Positions 1,052-29,484 of a DNA stretch of 64,000 nt are shown here, piece by piece. A program made the position numbers and the translations under genes. Numbering within the stretch: the first letter of the stretch is position 1; every line of letters starts with the position of its first letter. Source of the stretch: Phycisphaerales bacterium (lineage in GTDB: Bacteria; Planctomycetota; Phycisphaerae; Phycisphaerales; UBA5793); NCBI GenBank assembly GCA_020852515.1, contig JADZAS010000015.1, forward strand, positions 1-64,000, given 5' to 3'. The notes under the pieces are model-generated. The model was not told the DNA's origin. It ran no database searches and saw only the letters and a list, made by a program, of their open reading frames with translations.

Positions 1052-1785
1052 CCAACCAGGTCAACAGCACGATGCCCGCTCCCGGCGAGATTCGTCTCGA
1101 CCGGGATTCGCTCGTGCGCCTGGCGCTGGAGCGCATGTCGATGGAGACGCGGCGCGGCACGCGCAGCGCCATCGACGATCTGCCCGAGGGCGTCAGGCAC
1201 AGCATCGGCATCCTCAAGGCCCAGGGCTGGAAGCATGCCGACATCCACACCGAGACGATCAAGGCCCTCGGGCTCGAGCCTGATGATGACGAAGCGCCGA
1301 ATTACCACGCGATCAACCGCTGGCTGGTGCGCTACGAGTTCGTGTACAACCTGGTCCGCGCCGCCGAGCGGAGCAAGCTCGTCGCGCAGATCGAACTGGC
1401 CAAGGCGACCGGAGATCTCCGCGACGGCACGATCATCGCCAACCAGATGATCCTCCAGCGCATCATGGACACGATGGCCGAGTGCCCGGACTTCCGCGAT
1501 CTCAACAACGGCCAGATGGGCAATCTCATCAGCGCCCTGAGCGTGGCGACGAAGGCCGGCCTGGATGATCGCAAACTCGACAAGGCCATTCAGCTCGCCG
1601 ATGCGCGGATTGCGAACCTCACCACGCGCACGGTCGAACTCCAGACGAAGATCGACAATCAGCGCAAGGCCGTCGAAGCGGCCAAGGCGCAGCTCGAAGC
1701 GAAGGCGCAATCCGGCGACGGCAAGACGGTGGACCTCCAGTCCGTCGCCGCCATGCTCGATCAGATCATGCGGGAGGCCGCATGA
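1048..1785 (+). CDS. DUF3486 family protein, putative small terminase (Mu gp27-like)
   Basis: This 245-residue protein carries the DUF3486 signature near its N-terminus: RSAIDDLPEGVRHSI, then a helix-turn-helix-like stretch ending YHAINRWLVRYE. In Mu-like phages this family sits directly before the large terminase and is thought to recognise phage DNA for packaging. The rest is long amphipathic helix, with a likely coiled coil at about residues 195-225, which fits an oligomeric small terminase. It overlaps the gp26-like gene by four bases at its start and the large terminase by four bases at its end. The packaging role is inferred from family and position. Confidence 0.75.
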   Translation: MTNQVNSTMPAPGEIRLDRDSLVRLALERMSMETRRGTRSAIDDLPEGVRHSIGILKAQGWKHADIHTETIKALGLEPDDDEAPNYHAINRWLVRYEFVYNLVRAAERSKLVAQIELAKATGDLRDGTIIANQMILQRIMDTMAECPDFRDLNNGQMGNLISALSVATKAGLDDRKLDKAIQLADARIANLTTRTVELQTKIDNQRKAVEAAKAQLEAKAQSGDGKTVDLQSVAAMLDQIMREAA

Positions 1786-3218
1786 CAGAAGCACCCATTG
1801 TCATCACTCTTCCGAAGGCACGCAGCCCGCTGCTGCCGTACCAGCAGCGGTGGATGGCCGACGAGTCGGATCTCAAGATCTGGGAGAAGTCGCGGCGCAT
1901 CGGCGCGACCTACGTCGAAGCGTGTGATGTCGCGTTCAGCCGCCTCAGCGGCAGGCGCAACGAGGATTACTGGTTCTCATCCGCCGACGAGTCCGCCGCG
2001 TTCGAGTTCATCGAGTACGTCAAGTTCTGGTGCAAGGTCGCCGGCAGGGTGCTCGAATCGTTCACTGAGCAGGTCGACGACGGCACCCGCAACGGCGCGA
2101 CGGCGTACTGCGTGCGCTTCCCCAGCGGCAAGCGCTGCACCGCGATGAGCAGCAATCCGCGGCGCTTCCGCTCCAAGGGCGGCGACGTCGGCCTGGATGA
2201 GTTCGCCTTCCACGAGCAGGCGAGCGAGATGTACAAGGCCGCATCGCCGTGCACGACGTGGGGCGGGCGCCTGCGCATCCTCTCCTCACACAACGGCGAG
2301 CAGAGCAAGTTCAACGAGTTCGTGCAGATGGCCCAGCGCCACGCCGCCGGGAGCCCCAAGGCCGGCGATGTGAAGTTCAGCCTGCATCGGACCACGATCG
2401 AAGACGCCGTCGCCGACGGACTCGTTGAGAAGATCAACGAGGTCAAGGGCACGACGTACACGCGAGAGTCATTCCTCGCCGATTGCCGCGCCAAGTGCGC
2501 CACGCAGGATGACTGGCTGCAGGAATACATGTGCGTGCCGTCGGCCGAGACCGAGGCGTACCTGCCCTACGACCTGCTCAACACCTGCCTTGCCAGGCAC
2601 GGCCTGTGCGCGGCGCCGACGGATGACCTGGCGAAGTATGCCGACGACCTGCGCGCCTACACGTCCGGCGCCTCGGCGATTTACGCCGGCAACGACATCG
2701 GCCGCACCAATGATCGCTTCGTGCTCTGGACGATTGCCCGCTTCGGCGGCACCTGGTCGACGGCGGGGCTGCTCCGCTGGCAGAATCGCAAGTTCAGCGC
2801 GATGGAAGAGGCGATCGCCGCGACCATGAACTTCCGCAGCGCCGATGACAAGCGTGTGCGGCGCATCTGCATCGATCGCACCGGCCTGGGCATGCAGCTC
2901 GCCGAGCAGGCGTGCGAGAAGTTCCGCACCCGCGCTGAGGGTGTGCATTTCGGAAACGAGACGAAAGCGGAGATGGCCCCGCGCGTGCTCGTTGCGTTCC
3001 AGGAGGGGACGATCAAGATCCCCGATGACCGCCTGCTCAAGGATGACCTGCACAGCCTGCGCAAGAGCATGACGAGCAGCGGCAACGTGCGCTACGCCGG
3101 CGAGCGCGGCGCCAACGGCCACGCCGACCACTTCTGGGCGCTCGCTCTGGCGCTCGAAGCCGCCGACAAGCCCGTCGCCCAGGGCCGCGCCGTCACCGTC
3201 ACCGGAGGATCGATCTAA
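1782..3218 (+). CDS. Phage terminase large subunit (Mu gp28-like)
   Basis: This 478-residue protein is the probable DNA-packaging motor. The ATPase half shows LLPYQQRWMAD at residues 17-27, a degenerate Walker A loop EKSRRIGATY at 35-44 and a Walker B strand VGLDEF at 136-141. The nuclease half has RNase H-like acidic motifs: YAGNDIGRTND at 301-311, ICIDRTGLG at 362-370 and a late GHADHFWALALA. Length matches the gp28-type terminases (about 450-550 residues). It lies between the DUF3486 gene and the portal gene, overlapping both by one to four bases, as expected for a packaging operon. Confidence 0.9.
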   Translation: MTEAPIVITLPKARSPLLPYQQRWMADESDLKIWEKSRRIGATYVEACDVAFSRLSGRRNEDYWFSSADESAAFEFIEYVKFWCKVAGRVLESFTEQVDDGTRNGATAYCVRFPSGKRCTAMSSNPRRFRSKGGDVGLDEFAFHEQASEMYKAASPCTTWGGRLRILSSHNGEQSKFNEFVQMAQRHAAGSPKAGDVKFSLHRTTIEDAVADGLVEKINEVKGTTYTRESFLADCRAKCATQDDWLQEYMCVPSAETEAYLPYDLLNTCLARHGLCAAPTDDLAKYADDLRAYTSGASAIYAGNDIGRTNDRFVLWTIARFGGTWSTAGLLRWQNRKFSAMEEAIAATMNFRSADDKRVRRICIDRTGLGMQLAEQACEKFRTRAEGVHFGNETKAEMAPRVLVAFQEGTIKIPDDRLLKDDLHSLRKSMTSSGNVRYAGERGANGHADHFWALALALEAADKPVAQGRAVTVTGGSI

Positions 3219-4975
3219 TGGCGATCGCCACCGCGACGAACCTCCGCGAATCCGCCGCCGACAAGGCCCGCTACAACGCCATGCGCGATCGCGTCTGCAT
3301 GGGCCGCAAACTCTTCAAGGGCGCCTGGCGTCAGCTCCTCAAGGACCTCAGCCAGTTCTACTTCCCCTCGATCAAGAATCATCGCGGCGTCGTCGAAGAG
3401 CTGATGGCCAAGGTCAACGCGTACCGCCTGGCGGTCATGACGCACACCAAGTTCCTCGCACTCAACGAGCCCACCATCACCTTCGCCGACGGCTTCGAGA
3501 TGCAGGCCCAGCGCTGGGCCGAGATCTCGCGCGACTGCCTGTTCTCGCAGCGCGTCTTCGAGTCGATCCTCACGCAGTACCGCGACAGCGTGTCCTGGTG
3601 GCGCATCACCGCGCGCGAAGGCAGCGCCTGCCTGAGCGTCGCCGACGCCCTGCAGGTTCATCCCCTGGGCGCCTTCGGGCACGACGACCAGCCCACCGCG
3701 GTGGATCTCCGCTGGGTCATCACCAAGACGATCGACCGCAAGGATGTGCACTACCTGCTCGTCGAACGGCACACGCCAGGGCTCATCGAAAACGTCGCGT
3801 ACCAGGTCGACAGCAAGTACGCCTGCGCCATCCCCGACAAGGCGCAGCCGGTCGATCTCAAGAGCGTCCTGGGCGATGAAGCGCCCGAGCCGATGCAGTC
3901 CACCGGCGTCGATCGACCGCTGCTGTTCCGCGCGGCGCTGTGCGTGGTGGATGATGAACCGCTGGCGCTGATCGAGAAGGAAGACTTCGACATCCTGGAC
4001 GCCAACGCCAAGGCGCTCAGCCAGCTGCTCATGAATCAGGATCGGCACGGCTCGCCGTTCCTGCGCGTGGACGAAGGCCATCTCGAGAAGGACGGCACCT
4101 TCGACGCGAGCAAGCGCGCCCGCATCGACCCCGACAAGCAGCTTGAGTTCGTCGAGTTCGACGCCAAGGTCGTCGAGGGGCTCGACGCGTTCGCGCGCAT
4201 CCTTCGTTATCTCATGATCCAGCTGGAAATGTCGCCCGAACTCATCGGCCTCAAGGAAGGGGCGGCCGTTGAGAGTTACGAGAAGCTCATGCTCCAGGCC
4301 GTGGTGACCACGAGCCGGGCGCAGCTCACGCGGCAGTACAACGAGCCAGTCATCGAGCGCGTCATCGACACCGCGTGCGCCTTCGACGCCCATCTCCATC
4401 CCCTGGGCTACGCCACGGCGCCCGTCGATGTGACCATGCACCCGGGCCTGCCGCGCACGCCCGAGGAAACCAACCGCGGTCTGGCTGAGATGCACGCTGC
4501 CCGTCAGATCGACGGCTTGAGCATGCTCGAACAGATCCACGGCCCGGTGAAGGCGAAGACGATCGCTGAGCGGCTGCAGGCGGAAGATGACCGCCGCGCC
4601 GCCGATCTCATGCGCGGCTTCGAGGCGGCGGCATCGACAGGCGGCGAACCGGGCGAAGGTCTCGACACAGAGAACACGGAGAGCGCCGAGCGAGGCACGG
4701 CGCCGGCGGAACCCGGGATCGATCCCGTCACCGGCGAGCCGGCCGACGTCGCCCCCGCCGTCGTCACGACCGAGCGCGTCCTCAACGGCGCACAGATCCA
4801 GGCGGCGACGCTCATCGTCCGCAACGTCGTCGACGGCGTCATGCCGCGCGACGCCGGAATCGGCCAGCTCATCACGCTCTTCAACCTCACCAACGAGCAG
4901 GCCGAGGCGATCATGGGCACCGCCGGCAAGGGCTTTGTTCCCAAGGTCATCACTCAGGAGACTGCGCCCGCATGA
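3218..4975 (+). CDS. Phage portal protein
   Basis: This 585-residue protein follows the large terminase and precedes the minor head gene, the canonical portal position. The C-terminal domain (NGAQIQAATLIVRNVVDG, RDAGIGQLITLFNL, AEAIMG) is the helical tail common in portal proteins of gp6-like and DUF935-like groups. The middle holds an aromatic, Arg-rich segment (DSVSWWRITAREGSA) and a helix with RYLMIQLEMSPELIGL. Around residue 485 an in-frame stretch LDTENTESAERG is encoded by a CACAGAG-type short repeat that looks inserted (see findings). Portal assignment is strong by context; the exact subfamily is uncertain. Confidence 0.85.
   Translation: MAIATATNLRESAADKARYNAMRDRVCMGRKLFKGAWRQLLKDLSQFYFPSIKNHRGVVEELMAKVNAYRLAVMTHTKFLALNEPTITFADGFEMQAQRWAEISRDCLFSQRVFESILTQYRDSVSWWRITAREGSACLSVADALQVHPLGAFGHDDQPTAVDLRWVITKTIDRKDVHYLLVERHTPGLIENVAYQVDSKYACAIPDKAQPVDLKSVLGDEAPEPMQSTGVDRPLLFRAALCVVDDEPLALIEKEDFDILDANAKALSQLLMNQDRHGSPFLRVDEGHLEKDGTFDASKRARIDPDKQLEFVEFDAKVVEGLDAFARILRYLMIQLEMSPELIGLKEGAAVESYEKLMLQAVVTTSRAQLTRQYNEPVIERVIDTACAFDAHLHPLGYATAPVDVTMHPGLPRTPEETNRGLAEMHAARQIDGLSMLEQIHGPVKAKTIAERLQAEDDRRAADLMRGFEAAASTGGEPGEGLDTENTESAERGTAPAEPGIDPVTGEPADVAPAVVTTERVLNGAQIQAATLIVRNVVDGVMPRDAGIGQLITLFNLTNEQAEAIMGTAGKGFVPKVITQETAPA
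4664..4700 (+). repeat. CACAGAG/CACGGAG-type short repeat inside the portal gene
   Basis: A purine-rich run built of ACACAGAGAACACGGAGAG and related units lies inside the portal coding frame and adds the low-complexity peptide LDTENTESAERG. The same kind of motif, in opposite orientation, occurs at 4978-5018. Such runs are widespread intergenic repeats in several bacterial phyla (recalled, not searched), so this copy is read as an in-frame insertion. Confidence 0.5.
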
Positions 4976-4977
4976 AA

Positions 4978-5018
4978 CTCTTCGTGCCCCTTTGTGTCCT
5001 TTGCGCCATTGTGGTGAG
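4978..5018 (-). repeat. CACAAAGG/GGCACGAAG-type short repeat at a gene start
   Basis: On the minus strand this stretch reads GGCGCAAAGGACACAAAGG followed by GGCACGAAGAG. It is the same class of repeat as at 4664-4700 but inverted. It lies exactly between the portal stop codon and the likely true start of the minor head gene, adding an 18-codon hydrophobic false leader (MKLFVPLCVLCAIVV) in frame with that gene. Confidence 0.55.
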
Positions 5019-5025
5019 GGTTCTC

Positions 5026-6024
5026 ATGGTCGACCTGCCGCAGAACTACAACTCCGGCGTGCCGAATGCGGCCGTCGCTGAGATGGTGAAGATCTACGAC
5101 CGCGCCGCGAGCGAGATCGTCAAGGCCCTGGCCGTCGCCATCGACACGACGAATCCGAGCGAGCAGTTCAAGCGTGCCCGCGCCGCCCGGCTCGCCCTGG
5201 CGATCGACAACGCGACGCGCCGCTTCGGCGCCTCGATCCGCCCGCACATCGAAGACGTCTCGAGGGAGTCGTATCAGCTCGGCCTGCGTCAGGGCATCAG
5301 CCAGTTGAAAGCCCTGGGCGTGCGCGACCATGACACGTTCCGCGGCACGTTCGCCGGCGTCGATGAGCGCGCTGTCGAGATCATCGCGCGGGACATCGCC
5401 GTCGCGAGCGTGCAGGCCGTCGACCAACTCGGCCAGCAGAGCCAGCGATTCCTCCGCGCCATCAGCGCCAAGGAGATCTCCGATCCGGCCGTGAGCCGCG
5501 CCATCGCGCAGGGCTTGGTCACCGGCGATCCCCGCATCGCCATGCGCGAGGTGCGCGAACTGTTCCGCGAGCCCGGCAGCCAGGAGGATTTCCGGCAGCT
5601 GGGCAATCGCCAGGTCAAGGTCGGCAAGGCGACGATGTCTGTTCGCGCGTACAGCGAGATGCTCGTGCGCACGCGGACGCGCGAGGCGACGGTGCAGGCG
5701 CGTCACAACCGGCTGCGTGAGAGCAACGTTGACCTGGTCATCATCACCGGCCGCGTGAGCAAGTGGTTCTGCACTTCCTACCTCGGGCTGATCTGCTCGA
5801 TCGACGGCAAGAGCGGCAAGTGGCCGGCGCTCAGCTCGCTGCCGGGCGGCGGCCCGCCGTTTCATCCCAACTGTTCGAAGGGCACTCGACCGTACGTCGA
5901 AGGCCTGTCAGACCCGGCCGAGGAAGAGGCGGGGTTGCGGGCGCTCAGCGAGTTCCAGGACCGCGGCTCATCGCGGCAGCCGCTGAGCCCCGACGAAGTT
6001 TCCGCCGCGCGAGGACGAATCTAA
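5026..6024 (+). CDS. Phage minor head protein (head morphogenesis)
   Basis: This 332-residue protein sits directly after the portal, where tailed phages place the Mu F/SPP1 gp7-type minor head protein. The C-terminal region has the typical signature: VRTRTREATVQARHNRLRE, then a Cys-containing segment KWFCTSYLGLICS and PPFHPNCSKGTRPYVEG, a metal-binding-like HPNC block shared by these proteins. The start is placed at the ATG at 5026, preceded by GTGAGGG five bases away. An in-frame ATG at 4972 overlaps the portal stop but would translate a repeat-encoded hydrophobic leader. The protein likely acts inside the procapsid. Confidence 0.8.
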   Translation: MVDLPQNYNSGVPNAAVAEMVKIYDRAASEIVKALAVAIDTTNPSEQFKRARAARLALAIDNATRRFGASIRPHIEDVSRESYQLGLRQGISQLKALGVRDHDTFRGTFAGVDERAVEIIARDIAVASVQAVDQLGQQSQRFLRAISAKEISDPAVSRAIAQGLVTGDPRIAMREVRELFREPGSQEDFRQLGNRQVKVGKATMSVRAYSEMLVRTRTREATVQARHNRLRESNVDLVIITGRVSKWFCTSYLGLICSIDGKSGKWPALSSLPGGGPPFHPNCSKGTRPYVEGLSDPAEEEAGLRALSEFQDRGSSRQPLSPDEVSAARGRI

Positions 6025-7165: not shown

Positions 7166-8308
7166 ATGAATCCCAACACGACCAAGGCCTTCGGCGGCGT
7201 GATGTACCCCGAGGTCGCGCAGCAGATCTTCGTCAACATCGCGGCCAAGGATGCGCCGCTCACCGCCATCCTGCTCGGCACCCAGCGCGAGCGCCCGACC
7301 TCCAAGCCGGAAATCAACTGGTACGGACAGGGCCTCGCCACGCGCACGACGCAGATCAATGAGGCCGCAGGCTACCTGTCCACCGACACGGTTCTGACCG
7401 TCGACGCCGGCGAGGTGTTCGTGGCCGGCGATCTCATCCATGTCGAGCGCACGAACGAACTCATGAAGGTCGTCTCCGTCGCCGGCGATGATGTGACGGT
7501 CGTGCGTTCGTTCGGCTCGGTCGCCGCCGCCGCCCTCGTCGATGACGACTACCTGCTCAACATCGGCCCGGCGAAGAAAGAGGGCGACACCAACTCGGAC
7601 ATGCGCACGAACGCGACGACGAAGTACACGTCGTACACGCAGATCTTCCAGCGCTCCGTGCAGCTCACGGGCACGCTGGATGCCAGCACCACCAACACCG
7701 AGCAGGAACGCGCCCGCCTTCGCCAGGAGCAGATGTACGAGATCGCCCGCGACATGGAGCTGGCGGCACTGTACAGCAATCCCGGCGAGTACACCACCAA
7801 CGAGGTGCGCCGCTCGACCTCGGGCATCATGTCCTTCGCCACCGCCAACGTCGCCGACGCCAACGGCACGCTCACGAAGGCCGAGTTCCTGGACTTCCTC
7901 TCCACGGTCTTCGCCAAGGGCAGCCAGAACAAGATCGGCTTCGCCGGCCCGGCCGTCGCGGCCATTCTGACCAGCCTCTGGTCCTCGACCGAGCGCACGA
8001 CCGTGCAGAGCACCGTGGTCGGCCTCACGTTCCAGCGCATCGCCACGCCGTGGGGCAATCTCGATCTCATCGTCAACCCGCACATGACGGGCACGACGCA
8101 CGGGGCCGAGCTGCTCGTGGTCGATCCCGAGCAGTGCGAGGTGCGCCCGCTGGTGGGCAACGGCAAGGATCGCCGCCTCAAGCTGCTGGAGGACACGCAG
8201 GCGAAGAACACCGACGCGGCCGAGGACAGCTGGTTCGCCGAACTGGGCTTCACCTGGGGCAACCCCGACGCCCACGGCATCCTGAGCAACATCGACGCGG
8301 CCGGATAA
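7166..8308 (+). CDS. Phage major capsid protein (SU10 / DUF5309 type)
   Basis: This 380-residue protein is the main shell subunit. It shows the DUF5309/SU10 capsid layout: an N-terminal arm ending in a W-Y-G-Q segment (INWYGQGLATRTTQINEAAG), a barrel-like module HVERTNELMKVVSVAGDDVT with VVRSFGS, then TKYTSYTQIFQRSVQLTGTL, and a C-terminal LDLIVNPHMTGTTHGAELLV with CEVRPL. The same ordered motifs occur in the separate capsid gene at 34498-35679, so the two are homologous. It follows the scaffold gene and precedes small connector-region genes. Assignment is strong. Confidence 0.9.
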   Translation: MNPNTTKAFGGVMYPEVAQQIFVNIAAKDAPLTAILLGTQRERPTSKPEINWYGQGLATRTTQINEAAGYLSTDTVLTVDAGEVFVAGDLIHVERTNELMKVVSVAGDDVTVVRSFGSVAAAALVDDDYLLNIGPAKKEGDTNSDMRTNATTKYTSYTQIFQRSVQLTGTLDASTTNTEQERARLRQEQMYEIARDMELAALYSNPGEYTTNEVRRSTSGIMSFATANVADANGTLTKAEFLDFLSTVFAKGSQNKIGFAGPAVAAILTSLWSSTERTTVQSTVVGLTFQRIATPWGNLDLIVNPHMTGTTHGAELLVVDPEQCEVRPLVGNGKDRRLKLLEDTQAKNTDAAEDSWFAELGFTWGNPDAHGILSNIDAAG

Positions 8309-14365: not shown

Positions 14366-15397
14366 ATGCCCGGCTTCGACCTTGGATCAATTCGCGCCAC
14401 GATGGGCCTGGACAACAGCAACTTTGTTGCTGGCATGCTCGACTCGCGCACCGCGGCTGGGATCTTCGGCCAGGACATCGTCAACCTGGTCAACAATCCG
14501 CTGCTGGGCACGATCAGCATCTTCAAGCGCGTGGCCGTCGGTGCGGCCGAGGTCGTGAAGGAAACCGCGTTCGCCAATCAGGAGTTCGCGCGGATGGCCG
14601 ATCGCACCGGCGCGAGCATCCGCACGCTCACTGGCCTGCGCGTCGCCTACGAAGACTTCGGCCTCACCGTCCAGGACATCGAAAAGACCTTCTCCGAACT
14701 GGCCAAGCGCATCGAGGAGACACGCACGAGCGAGGATGCCAAGAAGCGCTTCGCCGACCTCGGCGTGCAGGTCAAGGACACGCAGGGCAACCTCCGCGGC
14801 ATCGACGAGATTCTGCGCGACGTGTCCGACGGTCTGGCGAACATGGAGGACAAAACCCGCGCGATGGCCATCGCGCAGCAACTCTTCGGCGACAAGGGTG
14901 TGCAGCTGCTCTCGATCTTGGGGAAGGGGTCTGAGGCGATCGACGACTTCCGCAAGAAGGCTGAGAACATGGGTTACGTGCTCACTGAGAGCGCCGCGAA
15001 GCAAAGCGACCGGTTTGCCGGCGCCCTCGGCGATCTCAAGTTCTCGATCGACGGCGTGAAGGAGGCAATGGCCACCGCATTTATCGAGGGATTCGCCGGC
15101 AACCTCACCGATGCGCAGCTTACCTCCGACGGTCTGGCGAGGGCGATCAAGGACACGCTGGTGCCGGCGGTCAAGGAACTCGGCGAGGCGATGTCAACAC
15201 TGCTCAAGATCCTGCAGCCTGTGCTCCAAATCCTCACACTGCTCCAAAAGGCGGACCTCGGTCACAAGCTCATCGGCGGGCCGATTCTCAGCGGGATCAA
15301 CAACCTGCTCGACCGCGTCGATCTGGACGGTGATCCGGTCGAGTCGGTCCGACGCATCCTCAGCGCCCAGCAGCGGCAGATTCGGGCGCTTGAGTAA
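14366..15397 (+). CDS. Short tail tape measure protein
   Basis: This 343-residue protein shows tape-measure features. It has an N-terminal FDLGSIRATMGLDNSNFVAG, the common opening of these proteins. A minor-tail segment follows with RTGASIRTLTGLRVAYEDFG, LTVQDIEKTFSELAKRI, DEILRDVSDGLANMEDKTRA and AIAQQLFGDKGVQLLSIL. Next comes FAGALGDLKFSIDGVKEAMA and a hydrophobic helix region at about residues 290-320. At 343 residues it is short for a tape measure (often 600-1500), implying a short tail if length scales as usual. The last base overlaps the next start (TAATG). Confidence 0.8.
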   Translation: MPGFDLGSIRATMGLDNSNFVAGMLDSRTAAGIFGQDIVNLVNNPLLGTISIFKRVAVGAAEVVKETAFANQEFARMADRTGASIRTLTGLRVAYEDFGLTVQDIEKTFSELAKRIEETRTSEDAKKRFADLGVQVKDTQGNLRGIDEILRDVSDGLANMEDKTRAMAIAQQLFGDKGVQLLSILGKGSEAIDDFRKKAENMGYVLTESAAKQSDRFAGALGDLKFSIDGVKEAMATAFIEGFAGNLTDAQLTSDGLARAIKDTLVPAVKELGEAMSTLLKILQPVLQILTLLQKADLGHKLIGGPILSGINNLLDRVDLDGDPVESVRRILSAQQRQIRALE

Positions 15398-20296: not shown

Positions 20297-20331
20297 GACA
20301 ACCCGTTGAGGGCTGGCTCATCAGCCCACGA

Positions 20332-20517
20332 AAAAGCCCGGGCAAGGCACCCGGGCGATGTGCTGCGCTAGATGGTCTGGCGGTTTCGTGTCGCATCTGG
20401 CGGTTTCGGTCGCGCCGCTACGAGAAAAGCCCGGGCAAGGCACCCGGGCGATGTGCTGCGCCCTGTGGTGTTGCCACTTTGGTTCCCAAAACGCCACTTT
20501 GATCGTCCCGCTACGCC
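20332..20517. repeat. Two tandem 93-bp units: hairpin plus paired 20-bp-spaced core motifs
   Basis: An identical 37-bp sequence occurs at 20332-20368 and 20425-20461. It contains the hairpin GCCCGGGCAAGGCACCCGGGC preceded by an A-run; read on the minus strand this is a GC hairpin followed by Ts, like an intrinsic terminator. Each copy is followed by two core motifs exactly 20 bp apart: TCTGGCGGTTTCG at 20376 and 20396 in unit 1, GCCACTTT at 20473 and 20493 in unit 2. Both units close with CGCTACG. The pattern recalls the multiple terminal repeats of IS21-family elements, but no transposase gene is present. Confidence 0.6.
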
Positions 20518-20674
20518 TGAACGACCGCTCGATCGGCCGGAGTGAGGAACAGCGCGCGATGCAGAACCCAGTCGTCATCGCTTCGCTGCTCGGGCCGCTG
20601 GTCGATCAGCACGCCGCGCCCGGGGTTATTTTGAGAATTCGGATCCGCCGCCGCCACGTTCTGGAGGAATTCGC

Positions 20675-20703
20675 TTGACATGACGGCAGTAGTATGTTAG
20701 GCT
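20675..20703 (+). promoter_or_regulatory. Putative promoter of the repressor gene
   Basis: TTGACA at 20675-20680 is a perfect -35 box. Seventeen bases later TAGGCT (20698-20703) is a weak -10 box. Transcription from here would give a leader of about 185 bases before the repressor ATG. Confidence is moderate because the -10 is poor. Confidence 0.4.
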
Positions 20704-20895: not shown

Positions 20896-21693
20896 ATGCC
20901 CGGAATCGGATGCATGATCAGGCAGCGCCGGCGGTCTCTGGGGCTCACGCTCCAGCAGGTCGCCGATCGTGTCGGATGCGGCCGGGCGTACCTGTCGATG
21001 ATCGAGACTGGCGCCCGCTCCACCCCCGGCGAGCCGCTGCTGGCGGCGCTCGAGCAGGCCCTGAACCTCGATCCGGGGCAACTGGTCGATGCCGCGTCAT
21101 GGGAGGCTACGCCGCGCCCCATTCAGCGCGAACTCGAAGCGATGCGCCAGCGCGAACAGCGCGCCGCCGCCGTGGCCCGCTGCCTCATCCAGAATGGACC
21201 GAACCTCGATGCCCTGCTCGAAACCGGCATGTTGCGGCGGTTCATCGAGGACCACACCGCCAATCTCGACGGCCCCGAGCCGTTGCGCATGCGCGTGCCG
21301 GTGATCAACGACGTCGCCGCCGGCGTGCCGCGCGACTTTACCGACCTGGACTACCCCGCGGCCATCGCCGATGACTACCTGCCCTGCCCGGACCTGGGCG
21401 ACGCCGACGCGTTCGCGGCGCGCGTGGTGGGCGACTCGATGGAGCCGCAGTACCGCGAAGGCGATGTGATCGTCTTCTCCCCCGCCGCAGCCACGCCCAG
21501 CGGCAGCGACTGCTTCGTCCGCCTCGAGCGCGACGCCGAGACGACGTTCAAGCGCGTGTTCTTCGAAGGTGATGACGAGCGGCTCATTCGCCTCCAGCCG
21601 CTCAACGGCAAGTACGAGCCGCGCCTCGTCGATCGCGAAGAGGTCGCGGGCCTGTACGCGGCGGTATACGTGATGCGCCCGGTGGGGCGCTGA
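20896..21693 (+). CDS. XRE-HTH / S24 peptidase repressor (CI/LexA type)
   Basis: This 265-residue protein has an N-terminal helix-turn-helix at about residues 8-60 (RRRSLGLTLQQVADRVGCGR, YLSMIETG) and a C-terminal S24 self-cleavage domain. The predicted cleavage site is Ala142-Gly143 in NDVAAGVP. The catalytic Ser181 lies in VVGDSMEPQYREGDVIVFSP and the general-base Lys219 in ETTFKRVFF. It is the expected design of a phage repressor that self-cleaves on RecA activation during DNA damage. It lies just beyond the late operon on the same strand, the opposite end from Mu's repressor. It could control this prophage or be a separate host regulator. Confidence 0.85.
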   Translation: MPGIGCMIRQRRRSLGLTLQQVADRVGCGRAYLSMIETGARSTPGEPLLAALEQALNLDPGQLVDAASWEATPRPIQRELEAMRQREQRAAAVARCLIQNGPNLDALLETGMLRRFIEDHTANLDGPEPLRMRVPVINDVAAGVPRDFTDLDYPAAIADDYLPCPDLGDADAFAARVVGDSMEPQYREGDVIVFSPAAATPSGSDCFVRLERDAETTFKRVFFEGDDERLIRLQPLNGKYEPRLVDREEVAGLYAAVYVMRPVGR

Positions 21694-22967: not shown

Positions 22968-23395
22968 TCGGCGCCTGACGGGCCGCCGGACTTCTTGTTC
23001 TGCGGCCCGAGGCGCAGATCGCGCGGCGCATTACTGAGCGACTTTCCCGACTGGCGGTCCTTGTCCTGCTGAAGTTCATCGGAGAGTTGCCGGTCCCACG
23101 GTTTCATGCCGTCAATGTGCGCCGCCTTGGCGAGCATGTGCGAGCCGACCGGCGCCGCGACGAAGGCGAAGACGATCGTCATCAGCGCCTTGGTCGTCAC
23201 CGCCAGCGTGCCCACGTGAAACACCGCCGCCAGCGCCAGGCCCATGATGCCCAGCGTCGAACACTTGCTCGTCGCGTGCAGGCGGTTGTAGGCGTCGGGC
23301 AGGCGCACCACGCCGATGGCGCCGACGAACATGAAGAAGATGCCCGCCAGCGCGCAGAAGATGCTCAGCGCATCGCCGATCGTTTGCCAGATCAT
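22937..23395 (-). CDS. mnhG: Na+/H+ antiporter subunit MnhG/MrpG
   Basis: This 152-residue protein has three membrane segments and the MnhG core: IGDALSIFCALAGIFFMFVG, AIGVVRLPDAYNRLHATSKC (the diagnostic R-L-P-D-x-Y-x-R-x-H motif), then GIMGLALAAVFHVG and LMTIVFAFVAAPVGSHMLAK. The MnhG part ends near residue 100; a polar C-terminal extension of about 50 residues follows. MnhG is part of the hetero-oligomeric Mrp cation/proton antiporter. The ATG at 23395 overlaps the mnhF stop in ATGA. Confidence 0.92.
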   Translation of the reverse strand: MIWQTIGDALSIFCALAGIFFMFVGAIGVVRLPDAYNRLHATSKCSTLGIMGLALAAVFHVGTLAVTTKALMTIVFAFVAAPVGSHMLAKAAHIDGMKPWDRQLSDELQQDKDRQSGKSLSNAPRDLRLGPQNKKSGGPSGADLTPRISAAV

Positions 23396-23763
23396 GATTC
23401 CGTCCGCCTCTTGAGGTTGCCGATGTACTGCGCGAACGCAAGCGTGCTGGCGAAGCCGATGATGGCCACGACCAGCGCCGCATCGAGATACACGGTCGAT
23501 TCGAGCCGCACCGTGAGCAGAATGACCAGCCCGACCACCTGAAAGGCGAGCGTGTCGCCCGAGAGGACGCGGTCGGCCAGGTGCGGCCCGGACACCATGC
23601 GATAGAGACACAGCATCATGCCCGCGATGGCGAGCACGGCTCCGAGTTCGAGGACGAAGAACAGCACCGGCTGCAGCGGGCTGGCCGCGTGGCTTGCCGA
23701 GACGAACTCGTGCCCCGCCGGCCCTTCGGCCAGGGTCAGGATCATGGAGCGCAAGTGGTTCAA
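23392..23763 (-). CDS. mnhF: Na+/H+ antiporter subunit MnhF/MrpF
   Basis: This 123-residue protein has three membrane segments and the MnhF pattern: LYRMVSGPHLADRVLSGDTL (the G-P-x-x-x-D-R-V-x-x-x-D motif), then FQVVGLVILLTVRLESTVYL and DAALVVAIIGFASTLAFAQY. The start is set at a TTG at 23763: an AGGAGG sequence lies seven bases before it and TTGA overlaps the mnhE stop, as at the other junctions. An ATG seven codons downstream (23745) is the alternative and lacks such a site. Confidence 0.88.
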   Translation of the reverse strand: MNHLRSMILTLAEGPAGHEFVSASHAASPLQPVLFFVLELGAVLAIAGMMLCLYRMVSGPHLADRVLSGDTLAFQVVGLVILLTVRLESTVYLDAALVVAIIGFASTLAFAQYIGNLKRRTES

Positions 23764-24236
23764 GTGAACACCTCCTGCTTGAGCCGGTTGTGGAGATCGC
23801 GCAGTTCGGCGATCGCGCTCGACCGGTCGAGAGCATACATGCAGTGGACGTAGAGCCACTTGTGGTCGTCCGAGACGTCGATGACCAGCGTGCCGGGTGT
23901 GAGCGTGATGCTGTTGGCCAGGATCGTCAGTTGCGTGTCGTTCAGGTCCGACACGTCGTGTCGGAGGATGCGCGGCGTCTGCGAAAGCCCGGGCGTGATG
24001 CACTCCCACGCGATCTTCAGGTTGGCCTGCACGAGGATCTTGAGGAAATACGCGCCAAAGCGCGCCAGCCGCCAGACCTTCCCGGGATAGGTCGGCCCCT
24101 TCCTGGTCAGCCCGGAGACCGAGATCACGAAGAAGCCGATCGCAAAGCCGACGATGACGTTCGGCGTGGACGAGTTGGCCGTCAACATGACGTAGACGAC
24201 CGTCAGGAACAGGTTGAGCAGAAACCCCCAGATCAT
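23760..24236 (-). CDS. mnhE: Na+/H+ antiporter subunit MnhE/MrpE
   Basis: This 158-residue protein has two N-terminal membrane segments (IWGFLLNLFLTVVYVML, VIVGFAIGFFVISVSG) and then the MnhE cytoplasmic domain: LARFGAYFLKILVQANLKIA, LTILANSITLTPGTLVIDVS and HKWLYVHCMYA. The S-I-T-L-T-P-G-T signature is diagnostic of the family. The subunit is needed for Mrp complex assembly and activity. It is coupled to mnhD through a four-base overlap. Confidence 0.92.
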   Translation of the reverse strand: MIWGFLLNLFLTVVYVMLTANSSTPNVIVGFAIGFFVISVSGLTRKGPTYPGKVWRLARFGAYFLKILVQANLKIAWECITPGLSQTPRILRHDVSDLNDTQLTILANSITLTPGTLVIDVSDDHKWLYVHCMYALDRSSAIAELRDLHNRLKQEVFT

Positions 24237-25846
24237 GGCGTCACCTCCACGGCCGCTGCGGCCAGCGCCGCCGACTCGGCGCGGGCCCGCGCCAGATCCG
24301 CAATCACTTCGGGGCCGAGCACAGCCTGAATATACGCCTCAGGCGCGGCCAGTTGCTCGCCGGCGCGATAGGCGATCTCATACACCGGCTGCGCGCCGAA
24401 GCCCAGGAACAGCGCCACGCACACCAGCAGTGTTGCCCCGACGTATGCCGGCCGCAGCGAGCTCGTGTTGGGCATGTTCGCCGGCGTGCGCTCGATCGAC
24501 TCGCCCGAGGGCGACGAGAAGCAGTAACTCCAGATCTTGAGCATCGACAGCAGCGTGAGCGCGCCCGTGAGCAAGCCGAAGATCGACAGCCACCACATGC
24601 TCTCGCGCCAGCCTTCGCGGATGATCACGAGTTTGCCGAAAAAGCCGCTCAGCGGCGGTAGACCGACGAGGCTCATCGCGGCGATGAAGAACACCACGCC
24701 GAGGTACGTATCGCGCTTGAGCAGCCCGCCGGACTTGTCGAGATCATCCGTGCCCGTGTGGCGCTCGACGATGCCGCAGCACAGAAACAGGCAGCTCTTG
24801 ACCACCATGTGCTGGATCATGTAGAACAGGCAGCCGGCCAGAGCGACTCTGGTCATCAGCGCCAGGCCGAAGACCATGTAGCCCACCTGGCTGATGACGT
24901 GCACCGCGAGGATGCGGCGGATGTTGTGGTGCGATACCGCGCCCAGCACGCCCAGAAACATCGTAAACGCCGCTGAAATCGCCAGCAGCGGCATGACGAC
25001 TTTGGCGGCGTCCGAGTTGCCGTGCGCGAAGATCATCGGGAAGGTGCGGGCGATGGCGTAGATGCCGACCTTGGTCAGCATGCCGGCAAACAGGCCCGCG
25101 ATCGAGACGTTGCAGGTGTAGTACGTGTCGGGCAGCCAGAACCACAGCGGGAAGATGGCGCCCTTGAGCCCGAAGACCAGCAGCAGCGAGATGGACAGCG
25201 CCGCAAAGCCCGGCGGCAGCGCCTCGCCGCGCGCCTGCCGCTCGGCGACGAAGCGCGCCAGGTCGGCATAGTTCAGCGTGCCCGTCATGCCGTAGACGAG
25301 CCCGGCGCCGATCACGAACAGCGTGGAGCCGACAAGGTTGAGCAGGACATACTTGTACGCCTGGGTCATCTGCAGCCGCGTGCCGCCGAAGGTCAGCAGG
25401 CAGTACGACGCCATGAGCATGATCTCGAACGAGACGAACAGGTTGAACAGATCGCCCGTGAGAAATGCGAGATTCACCCCGAACATGAGCAGCTGCACCA
25501 TGGGGTGGAAGTAGCGCTTCTCGGCGACGGGATCGACCGTGGAAAACGAGTGCACGTAGCAGGCCAGCGCCACGACCGACGACGCCGCCAGCAGCAGGCC
25601 CGACAAACTGTCGAAGACGACCGAGATGCCAAACGGCGCCGGCCAGGCGCCCATCTGCGACACGAGGATCCCCGTCGGATCCGAGCGCAGGTGCACGAGC
25701 AGGCCGATCGCCAGCGCCGAAGTCGCCAGAAAACTCAGCACGCCCAGCACGCGCGCGAGCTGCACTCGCTGCTTGAGCAGCACCCCGATGACGCCCGTGC
25801 CCATCGGAATCACGATGAAGAGGATGATGAAGTTCTCGAGTTCCAT
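24233..25846 (-). CDS. mnhD: Na+/H+ antiporter subunit MnhD/MrpD (NuoN/M-like)
   Basis: This 537-residue multispanning protein is the MrpD proton/cation channel-like subunit related to complex I NuoM/NuoN. Key regions are FLTGDLFNLFVSFEIMLMAS with the conserved TM5 Glu, GLKGAIFPLWFWLPDTYYTC with the TM7 Lys, and VSHHNIRRILAVHVISQVGY in the core. About 14 membrane segments are present. The MrpD family is usually around 500 residues; a short C-terminal extension is visible. It lies four bases after mnhC and overlaps mnhE, in the standard gene order. Confidence 0.92.
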   Translation of the reverse strand: MELENFIILFIVIPMGTGVIGVLLKQRVQLARVLGVLSFLATSALAIGLLVHLRSDPTGILVSQMGAWPAPFGISVVFDSLSGLLLAASSVVALACYVHSFSTVDPVAEKRYFHPMVQLLMFGVNLAFLTGDLFNLFVSFEIMLMASYCLLTFGGTRLQMTQAYKYVLLNLVGSTLFVIGAGLVYGMTGTLNYADLARFVAERQARGEALPPGFAALSISLLLVFGLKGAIFPLWFWLPDTYYTCNVSIAGLFAGMLTKVGIYAIARTFPMIFAHGNSDAAKVVMPLLAISAAFTMFLGVLGAVSHHNIRRILAVHVISQVGYMVFGLALMTRVALAGCLFYMIQHMVVKSCLFLCCGIVERHTGTDDLDKSGGLLKRDTYLGVVFFIAAMSLVGLPPLSGFFGKLVIIREGWRESMWWLSIFGLLTGALTLLSMLKIWSYCFSSPSGESIERTPANMPNTSSLRPAYVGATLLVCVALFLGFGAQPVYEIAYRAGEQLAAPEAYIQAVLGPEVIADLARARAESAALAAAAVEVTP

Positions 25847-25850
25847 GAAT

Positions 25851-26234
25851 TCAGTCGTCCTGCGTCGCCACGACGCCGAGTTCTTCGATGCTCAGCGTGC
25901 CCGTCTTGCGCGACGTGAGCACGAGCAGCGAAAGGAGAAAGGCCATGACGGCAAAGCCGATGACGATCGCGGTCAGAATAAGCGCCTGCGGCAGGGGATC
26001 GACGATGCTGCTCATGGGATGAGCCGGATCGAAGCCCTCTGTGAGGATCGGCGCGCCCTTGAGCAGTTGGGGCTCGTGCCGCACCGGGGTGCGGCTCATG
26101 GCGATGATGCTCAGGTTCGCCGCGTGTCCCAGCAGAAACACGCCCATGGCGATGCTCTTGAGTTCGCGGCCGGTCATGAGATACAGGCTCACGGCGAACA
26201 CGACCGCGACGCAGATGGAGAGGATGACGGTCAT
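25851..26234 (-). CDS. mnhC: Na+/H+ antiporter subunit MnhC/MrpC (NuoK-like)
   Basis: This 127-residue protein has three membrane segments and is homologous to NuoK of complex I. Motifs: VAVVFAVSLYLMTGRELKSI, AMGVFLLGHAANLSIIAMSR (G-x-x-L-x-x-x-A-x-N-L) and DPLPQALILTAIVIGFAVMA (D-P-L-P-Q-A-L-x-L-T-A-I-V-I), which is diagnostic for MnhC. It overlaps mnhB by four bases. Confidence 0.93.
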   Translation of the reverse strand: MTVILSICVAVVFAVSLYLMTGRELKSIAMGVFLLGHAANLSIIAMSRTPVRHEPQLLKGAPILTEGFDPAHPMSSIVDPLPQALILTAIVIGFAVMAFLLSLLVLTSRKTGTLSIEELGVVATQDD

Positions 26235-26659
26235 TCCAGTTCCTCGCTCAGTTGGCTGATCATCCCGACCCCCACGCCCACGACCACGAGCATCACGCCA
26301 AGGTCAAAGGCCATCGCCGAGGCGTAGTGAAACGCGTGGCCGCTGAAGGGCAGGTGGAACACGCCGACGGCCGAGCGCAGAAACGGCTCGCCCAGCAGCA
26401 GCGGCACGGTGCTCGTTCCCAGCGCCAGGCCCAGGCCCAGGAAGATGAACACGCGCGGGTGCACGGGCATGAGGCGCAGCTGCGCCGCGAAACCGTGCGA
26501 CATGCGATAGGTGCAGATGGCCGTGGCCATGATCATGCCGCCGATGAATCCGCCGCCCGGCTCGTTGTGCCCCTTGAGCATCGCGTACAGCGCGTAGAGC
26601 AACATGAGCGGCAGGATCAGCCGCATCGAATTGCGCAGCACCGGTGAGGAAATCGTCAT
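26231..26659 (-). CDS. mnhB: Na+/H+ antiporter subunit MnhB/MrpB
   Basis: This 142-residue protein has four membrane segments. The motif LKGHNEPGGGFIGGMIMATA is the conserved G-H-x-x-P-G-G-G-F-x-G-G of MnhB. The C-terminal FDLGVMLVVVGVGVGMISQL is also typical. In the complex it packs against MrpA. ATGA overlaps on both sides show tight coupling with mnhA and mnhC. Confidence 0.93.
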   Translation of the reverse strand: MTISSPVLRNSMRLILPLMLLYALYAMLKGHNEPGGGFIGGMIMATAICTYRMSHGFAAQLRLMPVHPRVFIFLGLGLALGTSTVPLLLGEPFLRSAVGVFHLPFSGHAFHYASAMAFDLGVMLVVVGVGVGMISQLSEELE

Positions 26660-29142
26660 AGCGCCACTCCCCTGGCCATCTGGTCGTCAAACTCGAGTTC
26701 CGTCGGCAGCGGCTTGCGGCGCGGGAACAGCGAGAACACGCCCAGGGCCGCGATGGACAGCACGGTGATCTCGCCGAGCGTGTCAAAGCCGCGGAAGTCA
26801 ACGAGGGTGACGTTGACGATGTTCTTCCCGCCCCCGCCCCGCCCGTCGGTCATTTCCGTGCCGCTGTAACTGTGCTGTGCAAAGAACGCGCCCAGCCGCG
26901 GCTCGGCCCCGCTCTGCGCCGAGACCAGCGTGAGCCAGCCGATCGCCACGCCCGTCAGCGTGCCCAGCGAGAAGCGCCACCAGCGCCCGCTGGCGCGGTC
27001 CGTCTCGCCCTTGTCGGGCAGCATGCGCAGCACGAGCACGAAGAGGATGACCGAAATGATCTCGAACATGAGTTGCGTCAGCGCCAGGTCGGGCGCCTGG
27101 TAGAGCAGGTACATGCCCACCACGCTGAAGCCGCACGAGCCGAGAATGATCACCCGCACCACGCGCGACTGCACGATGGGCATGAGAATCGCCGTCGTGC
27201 AGATGATCGCTCCCAGCAGCATGCCGGGGAAGAACTCAAACGGCGATTCGACCTGCGGCCAGTCAAGCATCGTCGGATCGAGCACCATCGACGCGACGTA
27301 CGCCGCAAGGAACGCCAGAAGCACGAAGACCAGGTAATTGCGGAATCGCCCGGTCTGAACAAGCCGGAACGCCCGTCCGCCGCCGGTGACTGACAGCCAG
27401 TACATCGCCGGGTAGATGCGGTCGTGGATATCGACGATGGCGCCTCGCATCAGGCCGCTCAGGCCGATCGACACGCCGCAGATGATCGCGATGAGCGACA
27501 CATAGAGCGGCACGCCGGGATGCGTAAACGCGTGCAGCGCGCTGGGCACGCCCTCGGCGAAGTGGTGCATGTTCGTCTCAAGCGGCGCAAACCACTGCGA
27601 CCACAGCCCGGGCGCCAGCCCACCGACGTACTGCAGCGACACAAGCGCCAGCGCCGGAATCCAGATCATCTGCGCCCACGGGCCGTGCTCGTGCTCGCCG
27701 TGGCCGTGACCGTGACCGTCATCATGCCCGTGGCTTGCCGCCGGCTTCATCCCGCCGGGCCAGCCCATGAGCGTGGTGAGCAGGCGCACGAAGATCGCCA
27801 CGTTGCACATCGCCGTCACCGCCGCCATGGCCATGAGCAGCATCCACCACGGCCCGATCGACTCGGCCGACTCGTGGATCGCGTGCAGGAAGAACTCCTT
27901 GGCGGGGAAACTCACCGTGCCCGGCCCGGCCGCGAGCGCGTAGCCGCCCAGCAGCATGGTGAGCACCATCCACGGCTGCTTCCTGAACGCGCCGTTGAGT
28001 TCCGTAATGTCGCGCGAGATGTAATGCCCCAGCGCGCCGGCGATGATGAACAGCGGCGCCTTGTAGAACGCGTGGTTGGCGATCTGCGTGATGCCCCACT
28101 CGATGTTCGGATGCCCGCCCGCTTCCATGCCGCCAAGGCCGTACACGCACATGAGCAGGCCGAGCTGGCTCACCGTCGTGTAGGCGAAGATGCGCTTGAG
28201 GTCATGCTGGTTCAGCGCCACCACGGCGCCGAGCACCATGGTGAAGGCGCCCAGCGGCACGAGGATGTTGCTCCACAGATGCAGCACCGCAAACACGGGA
28301 AACATCCGCGCCACCAGAAACACGCCGGCCTTGACCATCGTCGCCGAGTGCAGGTACGCCGACACCGGCGTCGGGGCCGCCATCGCGCCGGGCAACCAAT
28401 AGTGGAACGGCCACTGCGCGCTCTTCGTCGCGGCTCCGAACAACATCAGGGCGAACGATGCGATGATGAACGGATCGCTCGGGCTGATGCGGCCCGGGCC
28501 CAGCGCCAGCACCTCGCTCCAGCGCCATAGCCCGCCACCGCCGTGGCCGATGTCCGTGGCAAAGCCGAACATGAGTACCCCGCCCATGAGAAACATCCCG
28601 CCCAGGCCGGTCGTGAAGAACGCCTGCATGGCGAGTTTCACCGCGTGCTTGTCGTAGCGGTCCCAGCCGATGAGCAGGAACGAACTGATCGAGGTCAGTT
28701 CCCAGAACAGCACTGTCACGAGCAGGTAGTCGGAGAGGACGATGCCCATCATCGCCGTGGTGAAAAAGCCCAGCGTGGGGTAGAAGCGATAAAGCGATGC
28801 TTCATCGGGTCCGAAGTAGCCGCGCGCGTAGAGCACGATGAGGATGCCGATCCCCGAGACGAGCAGGCCGAAGAACGCGCCCAGCCCGTCGGCCAGAAAC
28901 GACAGGTTCATGTTGAGCAGCGGGATCCACGAGATGACCGGCGTCGCGACCGGCTCGCCCGCCACCGCCACGCCGTGGCTGCTCAGGTGCTGCCCCAGAA
29001 TGACCATCGACAGCACCGGGCCGGCCAGCGCCAGCAGCGTCCGCACCGTGATCGCCTTCCTGGGCAGAAACAGCGTGGCCAGGCCAAGCAGCGTCGGCGC
29101 GAGCACGCACAACAGAAGCCAGATCGTCGTGGATGCGGTCAT
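26656..29142 (-). CDS. mnhA: Na+/H+ antiporter subunit MnhA/MrpA
   Basis: This 828-residue protein is the large NuoL-like subunit that carries the proton path. Landmarks include the SVTVLFWELTSISSFLLIGW-like region with its conserved Glu (LVTVLFWELTSISS), AATKSAQWPFHYWLPGAMAA with the K-S-A-Q-x-P-x-H-x-W-L-P motif, LNQHDLKRIFAYTTVSQLGL and HALGHYIS-like loops. The C-terminus contains the DUF4040 and MnhE-like helices ending in RGFDTLGEITVLSIAALGVF, so A-type and extra C-terminal modules are fused as in typical full-length MrpA. A His/Gly/Asp loop HGHDDGHGHGHGEHEHG in the middle may bind metal. The ATG at 29142 starts MTASTTIWLL. Confidence 0.93.
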   Translation of the reverse strand: MTASTTIWLLLCVLAPTLLGLATLFLPRKAITVRTLLALAGPVLSMVILGQHLSSHGVAVAGEPVATPVISWIPLLNMNLSFLADGLGAFFGLLVSGIGILIVLYARGYFGPDEASLYRFYPTLGFFTTAMMGIVLSDYLLVTVLFWELTSISSFLLIGWDRYDKHAVKLAMQAFFTTGLGGMFLMGGVLMFGFATDIGHGGGGLWRWSEVLALGPGRISPSDPFIIASFALMLFGAATKSAQWPFHYWLPGAMAAPTPVSAYLHSATMVKAGVFLVARMFPVFAVLHLWSNILVPLGAFTMVLGAVVALNQHDLKRIFAYTTVSQLGLLMCVYGLGGMEAGGHPNIEWGITQIANHAFYKAPLFIIAGALGHYISRDITELNGAFRKQPWMVLTMLLGGYALAAGPGTVSFPAKEFFLHAIHESAESIGPWWMLLMAMAAVTAMCNVAIFVRLLTTLMGWPGGMKPAASHGHDDGHGHGHGEHEHGPWAQMIWIPALALVSLQYVGGLAPGLWSQWFAPLETNMHHFAEGVPSALHAFTHPGVPLYVSLIAIICGVSIGLSGLMRGAIVDIHDRIYPAMYWLSVTGGGRAFRLVQTGRFRNYLVFVLLAFLAAYVASMVLDPTMLDWPQVESPFEFFPGMLLGAIICTTAILMPIVQSRVVRVIILGSCGFSVVGMYLLYQAPDLALTQLMFEIISVILFVLVLRMLPDKGETDRASGRWWRFSLGTLTGVAIGWLTLVSAQSGAEPRLGAFFAQHSYSGTEMTDGRGGGGKNIVNVTLVDFRGFDTLGEITVLSIAALGVFSLFPRRKPLPTELEFDDQMARGVAL

Positions 29143-29484
29143 GATCTTGACTTGCACTCCTTGAGCGCGCGGCCCCGTGTGCCTCGGCCGCGCCGATGCC
29201 AGACGAACCGTCCGGATGGAATCGGAGCATCCGGCACGGGTCCGGGAATACATCGTCAAAAAATCAGGCCCCTCCGCGAAATCGCGCAGCGCACGGGGTG
29301 AATTACCTCAAATGGACGATGCGCTCGCGCGGCACGCGCAATTCCTGCGCCCTGCCCCGAAGACCGAAGGCCGAGACGAGCCGCGCTTGTCAGGGTCTGT
29401 TGCCCAAAGGTGCGCCGGCACCGTCATGCCTGCGCAGGCATGACGGCATGCGCCGCGACGGCGCATGCCGGAGCCCTTCGCGGC
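29143..29484. other. 342-bp intergenic region, mnhA to cysteine desulfurase
   Basis: No gene is seen. It contains the presumed mnh promoter side and, at its left-hand end near the desulfurase stop, two adjacent perfect palindromes at 29423-29444 and 29445-29469 (listed separately). Confidence 0.6.
29423..29469. repeat. Paired perfect palindromes (REP-like)
   Basis: GTCATGCCTGCGCAGGCATGAC at 29423-29444 is a perfect 22-base palindrome; it is directly followed by GGCATGCGCC (29445-29454), a 5-base loop and GGCGCATGCC (29460-29469). The first half shares GCCTGCGCAGGC with the element at 32580-32656. It sits downstream of the cysteine desulfurase and could act as a bidirectional terminator or a REP element. 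Confidence 0.6.

Follow-up and report, generated by a model that had tools for sequence, protein, structure and literature searches.

The two repeat units that lie side by side at positions 20332–20515 of the window, by which we mean the whole 64-kb stretch of Phycisphaerales DNA analysed here, are very probably the right-hand termini of two related Mu-like transposable prophages, each furnished with putative sites for a MuA-type transposase. The element tips, the target duplications, the empty insertion site, the paired sites and the use of unit 1 as the end of other prophage copies are observed directly. The window holds one two-copy repeat family, at 20332–20422 and 20425–20515 (91 nt each), the copies being 93 nt apart and 74% identical, with the first 37 nt identical between units; the hairpin pattern, with up to 3 mismatches allowed, is present twice in the 64 kb, while 0 of 100 shuffles reach two occurrences. 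The repeat search therefore confirms the first-pass annotation in its description of two units with a common 37-bp segment and with cores that agree at a 20-bp distance within a unit but differ between units. Unit 1 carries the core CTGGCGGTTTCG at 20377–20388 and 20397–20408, and unit 2 the core GCCACTTTG at 20473–20481 and 20493–20501, both pairs with a spacing of 20 bp. The 93-bp boundaries proposed for the units hold as a repeat and not as limits: unit 1 ends with CGCTACG at 20422, and unit 2 starts at 20423 and ends with CCGCTACG at 20515, these being shifted because the limits are the termini of the elements.

Both ends read on the minus strand, where the order from the tip inward is CGTAGC, a core at nt 15–26, a core at nt 35–46, GCGCAGCACATCG, a terminator-like hairpin and T. 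Right end A (unit 1, 20332–20422) has its tip at 20422, with the inner core CGAAACCGCCAG at 20377–20388, the same sequence as outer core at 20397–20408, and the hairpin at 20336–20356 (−17.5 kcal/mol, z −3.6), which faces transcripts coming from outside. Right end B (unit 2, 20423–20515) has its tip at 20515, the inner core CAAAGTGGCAAC at 20470–20481, the outer core CAAAGTGGCGTT at 20490–20501, and a hairpin at 20429–20449 (−17.5 kcal/mol, z −3.9). The two cores of each end are thus two helical turns apart, as putative transposase sites, and the terminators would block outside transcription from entering the end. A second small hairpin is seen inside end A (window 20311–20328; L035 15–33), its stem being kept by paired changes (GGGCTG/CAGCCC versus GGGCCG/CGGCCC).

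The position of the prophage boundary is established from the interrupted chromosomal gene to the right of unit 2. Its 5' part (20521–20680, minus strand, the outer limit set by eye) belongs to a gene that is intact in genome G004, and its remainder was located in the window's own genome (G000), close to the end of contig C11, where it is followed by CGTAACGGGAACAC and then by phage sequence. The left flank ends in CCTGA, near the end of C11, and the right flank starts with the same five bases at 20516–20520; the joined host flanks match G004 over 113 nt at 87% and gap-free, which indicates that unit 2 is the outer boundary of the prophage and that unit 1 lies just inside it. The left end on C11 carries the B core CAAAGTGGCG, with one clear B core only, the first site reading CACAACGGCG. 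In genome G001, contig C68 (L084, ~5291) has a left end with core D in the chromosomal gene that the window prophage interrupts (20516), in the same orientation and ~30 bp off as judged by eye, which would reflect either a preferred target or an old insertion common to both. Further into the chromosome, a run of minus-strand open reading frames (window 23100–29260) resembles, by eye, a Mrp-type antiporter operon.

A 451-nt query around the units, searched against G000, evidences that unit 1 recurs at two contig edges (start of C9 and end of C10, 95% identity over 126 nt), and that a shorter match with the same core lies at the edges of C35 and C18, so that core A is found at other sites of the genome. 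Within its 4.7 Mb there are three occurrences of the double core A and a single one of the double core B. A stretch of exactly 127 nt is common to C9 and C10, and another of that length to C35 and C18, which identifies the former pair as right ends and the latter as left ends of a repeated element that the assembly has cut; joining the flanks of C10 and C18 results in the 5-bp duplication CCAGC (GCTGG on the other strand), and joining those of C9 and C35 in CAACG. The ends at L036 and L034 show an A prophage splitting a gene that resembles, by eye, a membrane methyltransferase-like protein. A complete element with both ends is present in G001, a related genome of the same genus (UBA5793), on contig C49 at 20951–55859 (34,909 bp); it is flanked by the duplication GCGGC and has a third core type, C, CGAAATGTCG. 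A 5-bp duplication is found in all four elements for which both flanks are known, and these four also have CG...CG termini, against the TG...CA usual in Mu-like phages. Repeated cores, putative transposase sites, are present in the right and left ends catalogued, and we would file the elements as a variant of the Mu-like group despite CG...CG, since the terminal dinucleotide is known to vary.

The gene content is that of such phages. The prophage late region occupies 1–20296 of the window on the plus strand, with genes for terminase (1782–3218), portal (3218–4975), minor head protein (4972–6024), SU10-type capsid (7166–8308) and tape measure (14366–15397) and further tail genes; together with the length of the C49 element, this corresponds to the expected ~35–40 kb with head and tail genes. 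Contig C17 of G000 encodes a transposase of 736 aa with the Mu Igamma, catalytic and C-terminal domains (PF09039, PF02914, PF09299), which matches phrog_310 (E 5.5e-72) and, in a sequence search of the PDB, the Mu transpososome 4fcy (E 1.1e-12). Residues 85–489 of its predicted model align with MuA 88–475 of 4fcy_B (Z 13.7), an alignment that has to be read domain by domain given the rmsd of 20.0 over 318 residues, and which is all that was taken from a model of mean pLDDT 62.6 and pTM 0.35. Contig C31 of G000 bears the C-terminal half of another transposase followed by a gene for a MuB-type ATPase (L031:1350–2471; phrog_296, E 5.5e-48), and in the C49 element the transposase gene reads toward the left end. 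Counting its own genome, a related transposase is found in 7 of 61 genomes near that of the window and in 41 of 397 of the class, none of them close outside the genus. A scan of viral contigs with one transposase protein gave no close relative, a scan with the transposase alignment gave 23 loci, all at 20–32% identity, and a search of named phages gave 47 records, all below 60% identity.

Other origins have been considered for the units. The first-pass annotation had suggested sites for two different proteins, which we take as right in the sense of putative transposase sites of two core types, or the ends of two related elements in tandem, of which the tandem ends stand, as Mu-like right ends, while their assignment to the IS21 family does not. 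IS21 elements also carry repeated sites at their ends, and the IstA structures 8b4h and 8q4d are among the fold matches of the transposase; however, the element between such ends on C49 is a 34.9-kb phage with MuA, MuB, head and tail genes and neither istA nor istB, and the rve-domain matches in G000 (C9:102274 and C5:221755) lie far from the ends, which makes insertion-sequence ends in tandem highly improbable for phages of ~35 kb with MuA/MuB genes. The units also have phage late genes on one side and an S24 repressor gene (20896–21693, plus strand) on the other, a location that had led to their being proposed as its operators. Yet the repressor is no phage gene: it is chromosomal, outside the prophage and beyond the target duplication, it is 96.6% identical in G004, a genome in which no Mu-transpos_C protein was found, and 78.5% identical in G002 and G003, and such sites are also present at the edges of prophages distant from it, so that an operator function appears extremely unlikely. 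The 37 nt identical between units could also have come from a simple tandem duplication of one unit, with the cores changing in concert later, but unit 1 is found elsewhere without unit 2, a left end of the matching core class is paired with unit 2, and the unit boundaries are element tips; we regard this origin as very unlikely. The units are best understood as two prophage right ends.

The manner in which the two ends came to be stacked is less clear. B-type ends inserted the window prophage into the chromosomal gene, creating the CCTGA duplication, and an A-type right end would then have transposed into end B, just on the phage side of the B terminator. Unit 1 stops exactly at its tip and the interior of the B end, AGAAAAGCC, directly adjoins it, which is what an A right end transposing into end B would leave; the would-be target duplication of such a jump is AGAAA at 20423–20427, for which no left partner was found in G000. 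An assembly error was considered as a source of the arrangement; the junction lies outside any shared repeat, and several contig ends of G000 have exactly 127 nt in common. We see about even chances that what remains is a relic of recombination, in which similar A and B prophages in the same orientation would have recombined to give one phage with the left arm and the outer ends of B and, inside them, an A right end that is inactive. Alternatively, a whole A prophage may still be nested inside B. The nested prophage needs a third left end A, which was not found in the G000 bin and so speaks weakly for recombination, yet the bin is without short and repeated phage contigs, making the missing end weak evidence. 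Contig C7, which precedes the window with an exact overlap of 111 nt, shares its left part with C6 but not with the A contig C17, and it is C6 that it resembles near the transposase, which also weakly favours a relic; against this, the presence of both C6 and C7 could mean two phages at the window locus, and no contig connects C11 or C31 to C7. That such exchanges occur is indicated by contigs C12 and C13 of G001, which are 96–99% identical on either side of a far more divergent MuA-MuB stretch. A B enzyme would move the outer ends of the stacked prophage, and the inner A end is without an A partner on the left, as left end B shows no A core.

Further arrangements of this kind are seen in G001. 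The divergent MuA-MuB stretch between near-identical flanks of C12 and C13 (L046, L045) represents an exchange of the transposition module. On contig C11 of the same genome (L083, 2760–2840) a pair of core-A left ends is arranged head to head with a distance of 14 bp. The segments L049 9238–11834 and L083 1–2795 overlap by 23 nt, which would make up a deleted element of 5.4 kb with both A ends, although its flanks are without a duplication and the join may therefore be wrong.

The catalogue of ends comprises 9 right and 8 left ends, C9/C10 and C18/C35 among them being copies. All 9 right ends have the tip CGTAGC and all 8 left ends the tip CGTAAC, a constancy that is partly one of choice, as several ends were found through homology to those tips. 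The cores fall into six types, which occur in four of the genus's five genomes: A, CGAAACCGCC, in G000, G001 and G002; B, CAAAGTGGC, in window unit 2 and C11 of G000; C on C49 of G001; D, AACTGCC, on C68 of G001; E, CAAAATGGCC, on C56 of G001; and F, CAAAGTGGCC, on C3 of G003. Cores B, E and F are alike, making four a possible count also, and no phage end was found in G004. Beyond the tip, CGTAACCGGAC follows in left ends of types A and C, and CGTAACGGGAAC in those of types B, D and E. The variation in related genomes is thus patterned and is not a drift without order: cores within one phage agree, though imperfectly, and for 20 core 10-mers of the six end types the identity is 9.04/10 within and 6.25 between types, a gap reached by 0 of 20,000 label shuffles, which describes the pattern and is no independent proof, sites and types having been picked by eye beforehand. 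The types overlap, with a lowest within-type identity of 6 and a highest between-type identity of 9. A blind terminus scan of G045 and G013 gave hundreds of candidates, the known C49 ends taken as control being absent among the eight candidates listed.

We have compared the five full-length transposases of the genus over their N-terminal, Ibeta, Igamma, catalytic and C-terminal parts. The parts of MuA that bind the ends are Ibeta (77–168) and Igamma (178–242) (PMC3362531). Between C17 and C12 the identities of the five parts are 95, 54, 90, 95 and 95%, and between C13 and C49 they are 62, 51, 89, 89 and 88%. The transposase on C9 of G003 gives 56, 66, 78, 63 and 74% with C13 and 70, 42, 78, 65 and 74% with C49, meaning that the Ibeta of C13 is closer to that of G003 C9 than to that of C49, a relation contrary to that of the remaining parts. 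In alignment columns 101–150 the amino-acid identity of C17 and C12 drops to 45–56%, and 7 of 14 fourfold sites differ there, versus 7–38% in most other windows and 62–70% in columns 201–250; with so few sites, either rapid amino-acid change or a short imported piece would account for the divergence. Ibeta is among the less conserved parts in most other family pairs, so part of this divergence is ordinary, but the C17–C12 pair exceeds the ordinary trend. From the order of domains and sites we infer contacts of Igamma with the conserved tip and of Ibeta with the variable core. Each end would then be bound by two or three transposase molecules, the helix-turn-helix of Ibeta reading the core, and the ends would be paired, cut at CG and joined to target positions 5 bp apart.

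Transposase and end code probably change together, judging from the sequences, the link having been traced for two transposases only: core C to its transposase within one contig (C49), and core A through one chain of overlaps, in which exact overlaps of 19, 127 and 68 nt lead from C17 via C8 and C27 to core-A left ends, the first join being that of only 19 nt. C31, whose N-terminal half was not recovered and which differs from C8 by 6% over 559 nt, is assigned to core B by elimination only. The transposases on C12 and C13 of G001 were tied to no end when the starts of 30 further contigs of that genome were checked, two of which (L213 and L235) have phage genes and no ends. Our prediction would pair C13 with core E and C12 with core D, since C13 and G003 C9 share the helix LSYRQLREW and the genomes that contain them carry cores E and F, which are similar; the contig overlaps C11/C68 and C12/C13 of G001 suggest that C12 and C13 could instead be paired with cores A and D. 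More tentatively, and with the odds rather against it, the family may be a code-switching system, in which Ibeta and the end cores would be swapped or diversified jointly on a near-constant transposase, several phages per genome would be blind to each other's ends, and stacked ends would be intermediates for gaining a new code. A joint change of Ibeta and cores would stop cross-reaction among related phages.

Recognition of the ends by MuA is a textbook system, and to our knowledge few natural variants of its specificity exist. Phage Mu itself (L1–L3, R1–R3) has in common with the present elements MuA and MuB type genes, a 5-bp duplication and repeated transposase sites at both ends, whereas here the termini are CG...CG, the transposase gene reads toward the left end, the identity to Mu A is ~24% and the cores vary among close relatives. 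TnsB of Tn7/CAST elements and IstA of IS21 have a related fold and multiple end sites, but no tns or ist gene set is seen between the ends here. The Mu-like phages of Pseudomonas aeruginosa (PaMx73 group) likewise have putative transposase sites near both ends; in that group these are reported to be well conserved along with transposase A, and the triplet 5'-TGT is found at the termini (PMC4378225), while here cores switch between near relatives. Transposable prophages of Leptospira are described with TA-TA ends and a 6-bp duplication (PMC8705779), unusual termini being what they share with the present elements, which have CG-CG and 5 bp instead. A literature search, most subscription papers lying outside it, gave no report of natural MuA specificity variants or CG termini, nor of such Mu-like phages in the host group of the window.

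The solid part of these results is the biology of Mu-like phages with unusual CG termini; the joint change of Ibeta and core is the more interesting one, supported by a small set. The CG...CG termini question the strictness of the CA-3' rule. With about six end codes, and with five full-length transposases that include a pair differing mainly in one subdomain, the recognition code becomes directly testable, and the family might yield transposases that ignore each other's ends. Stacked ends with different transposase sites suggest that these viruses keep changing the code that their enzyme reads.
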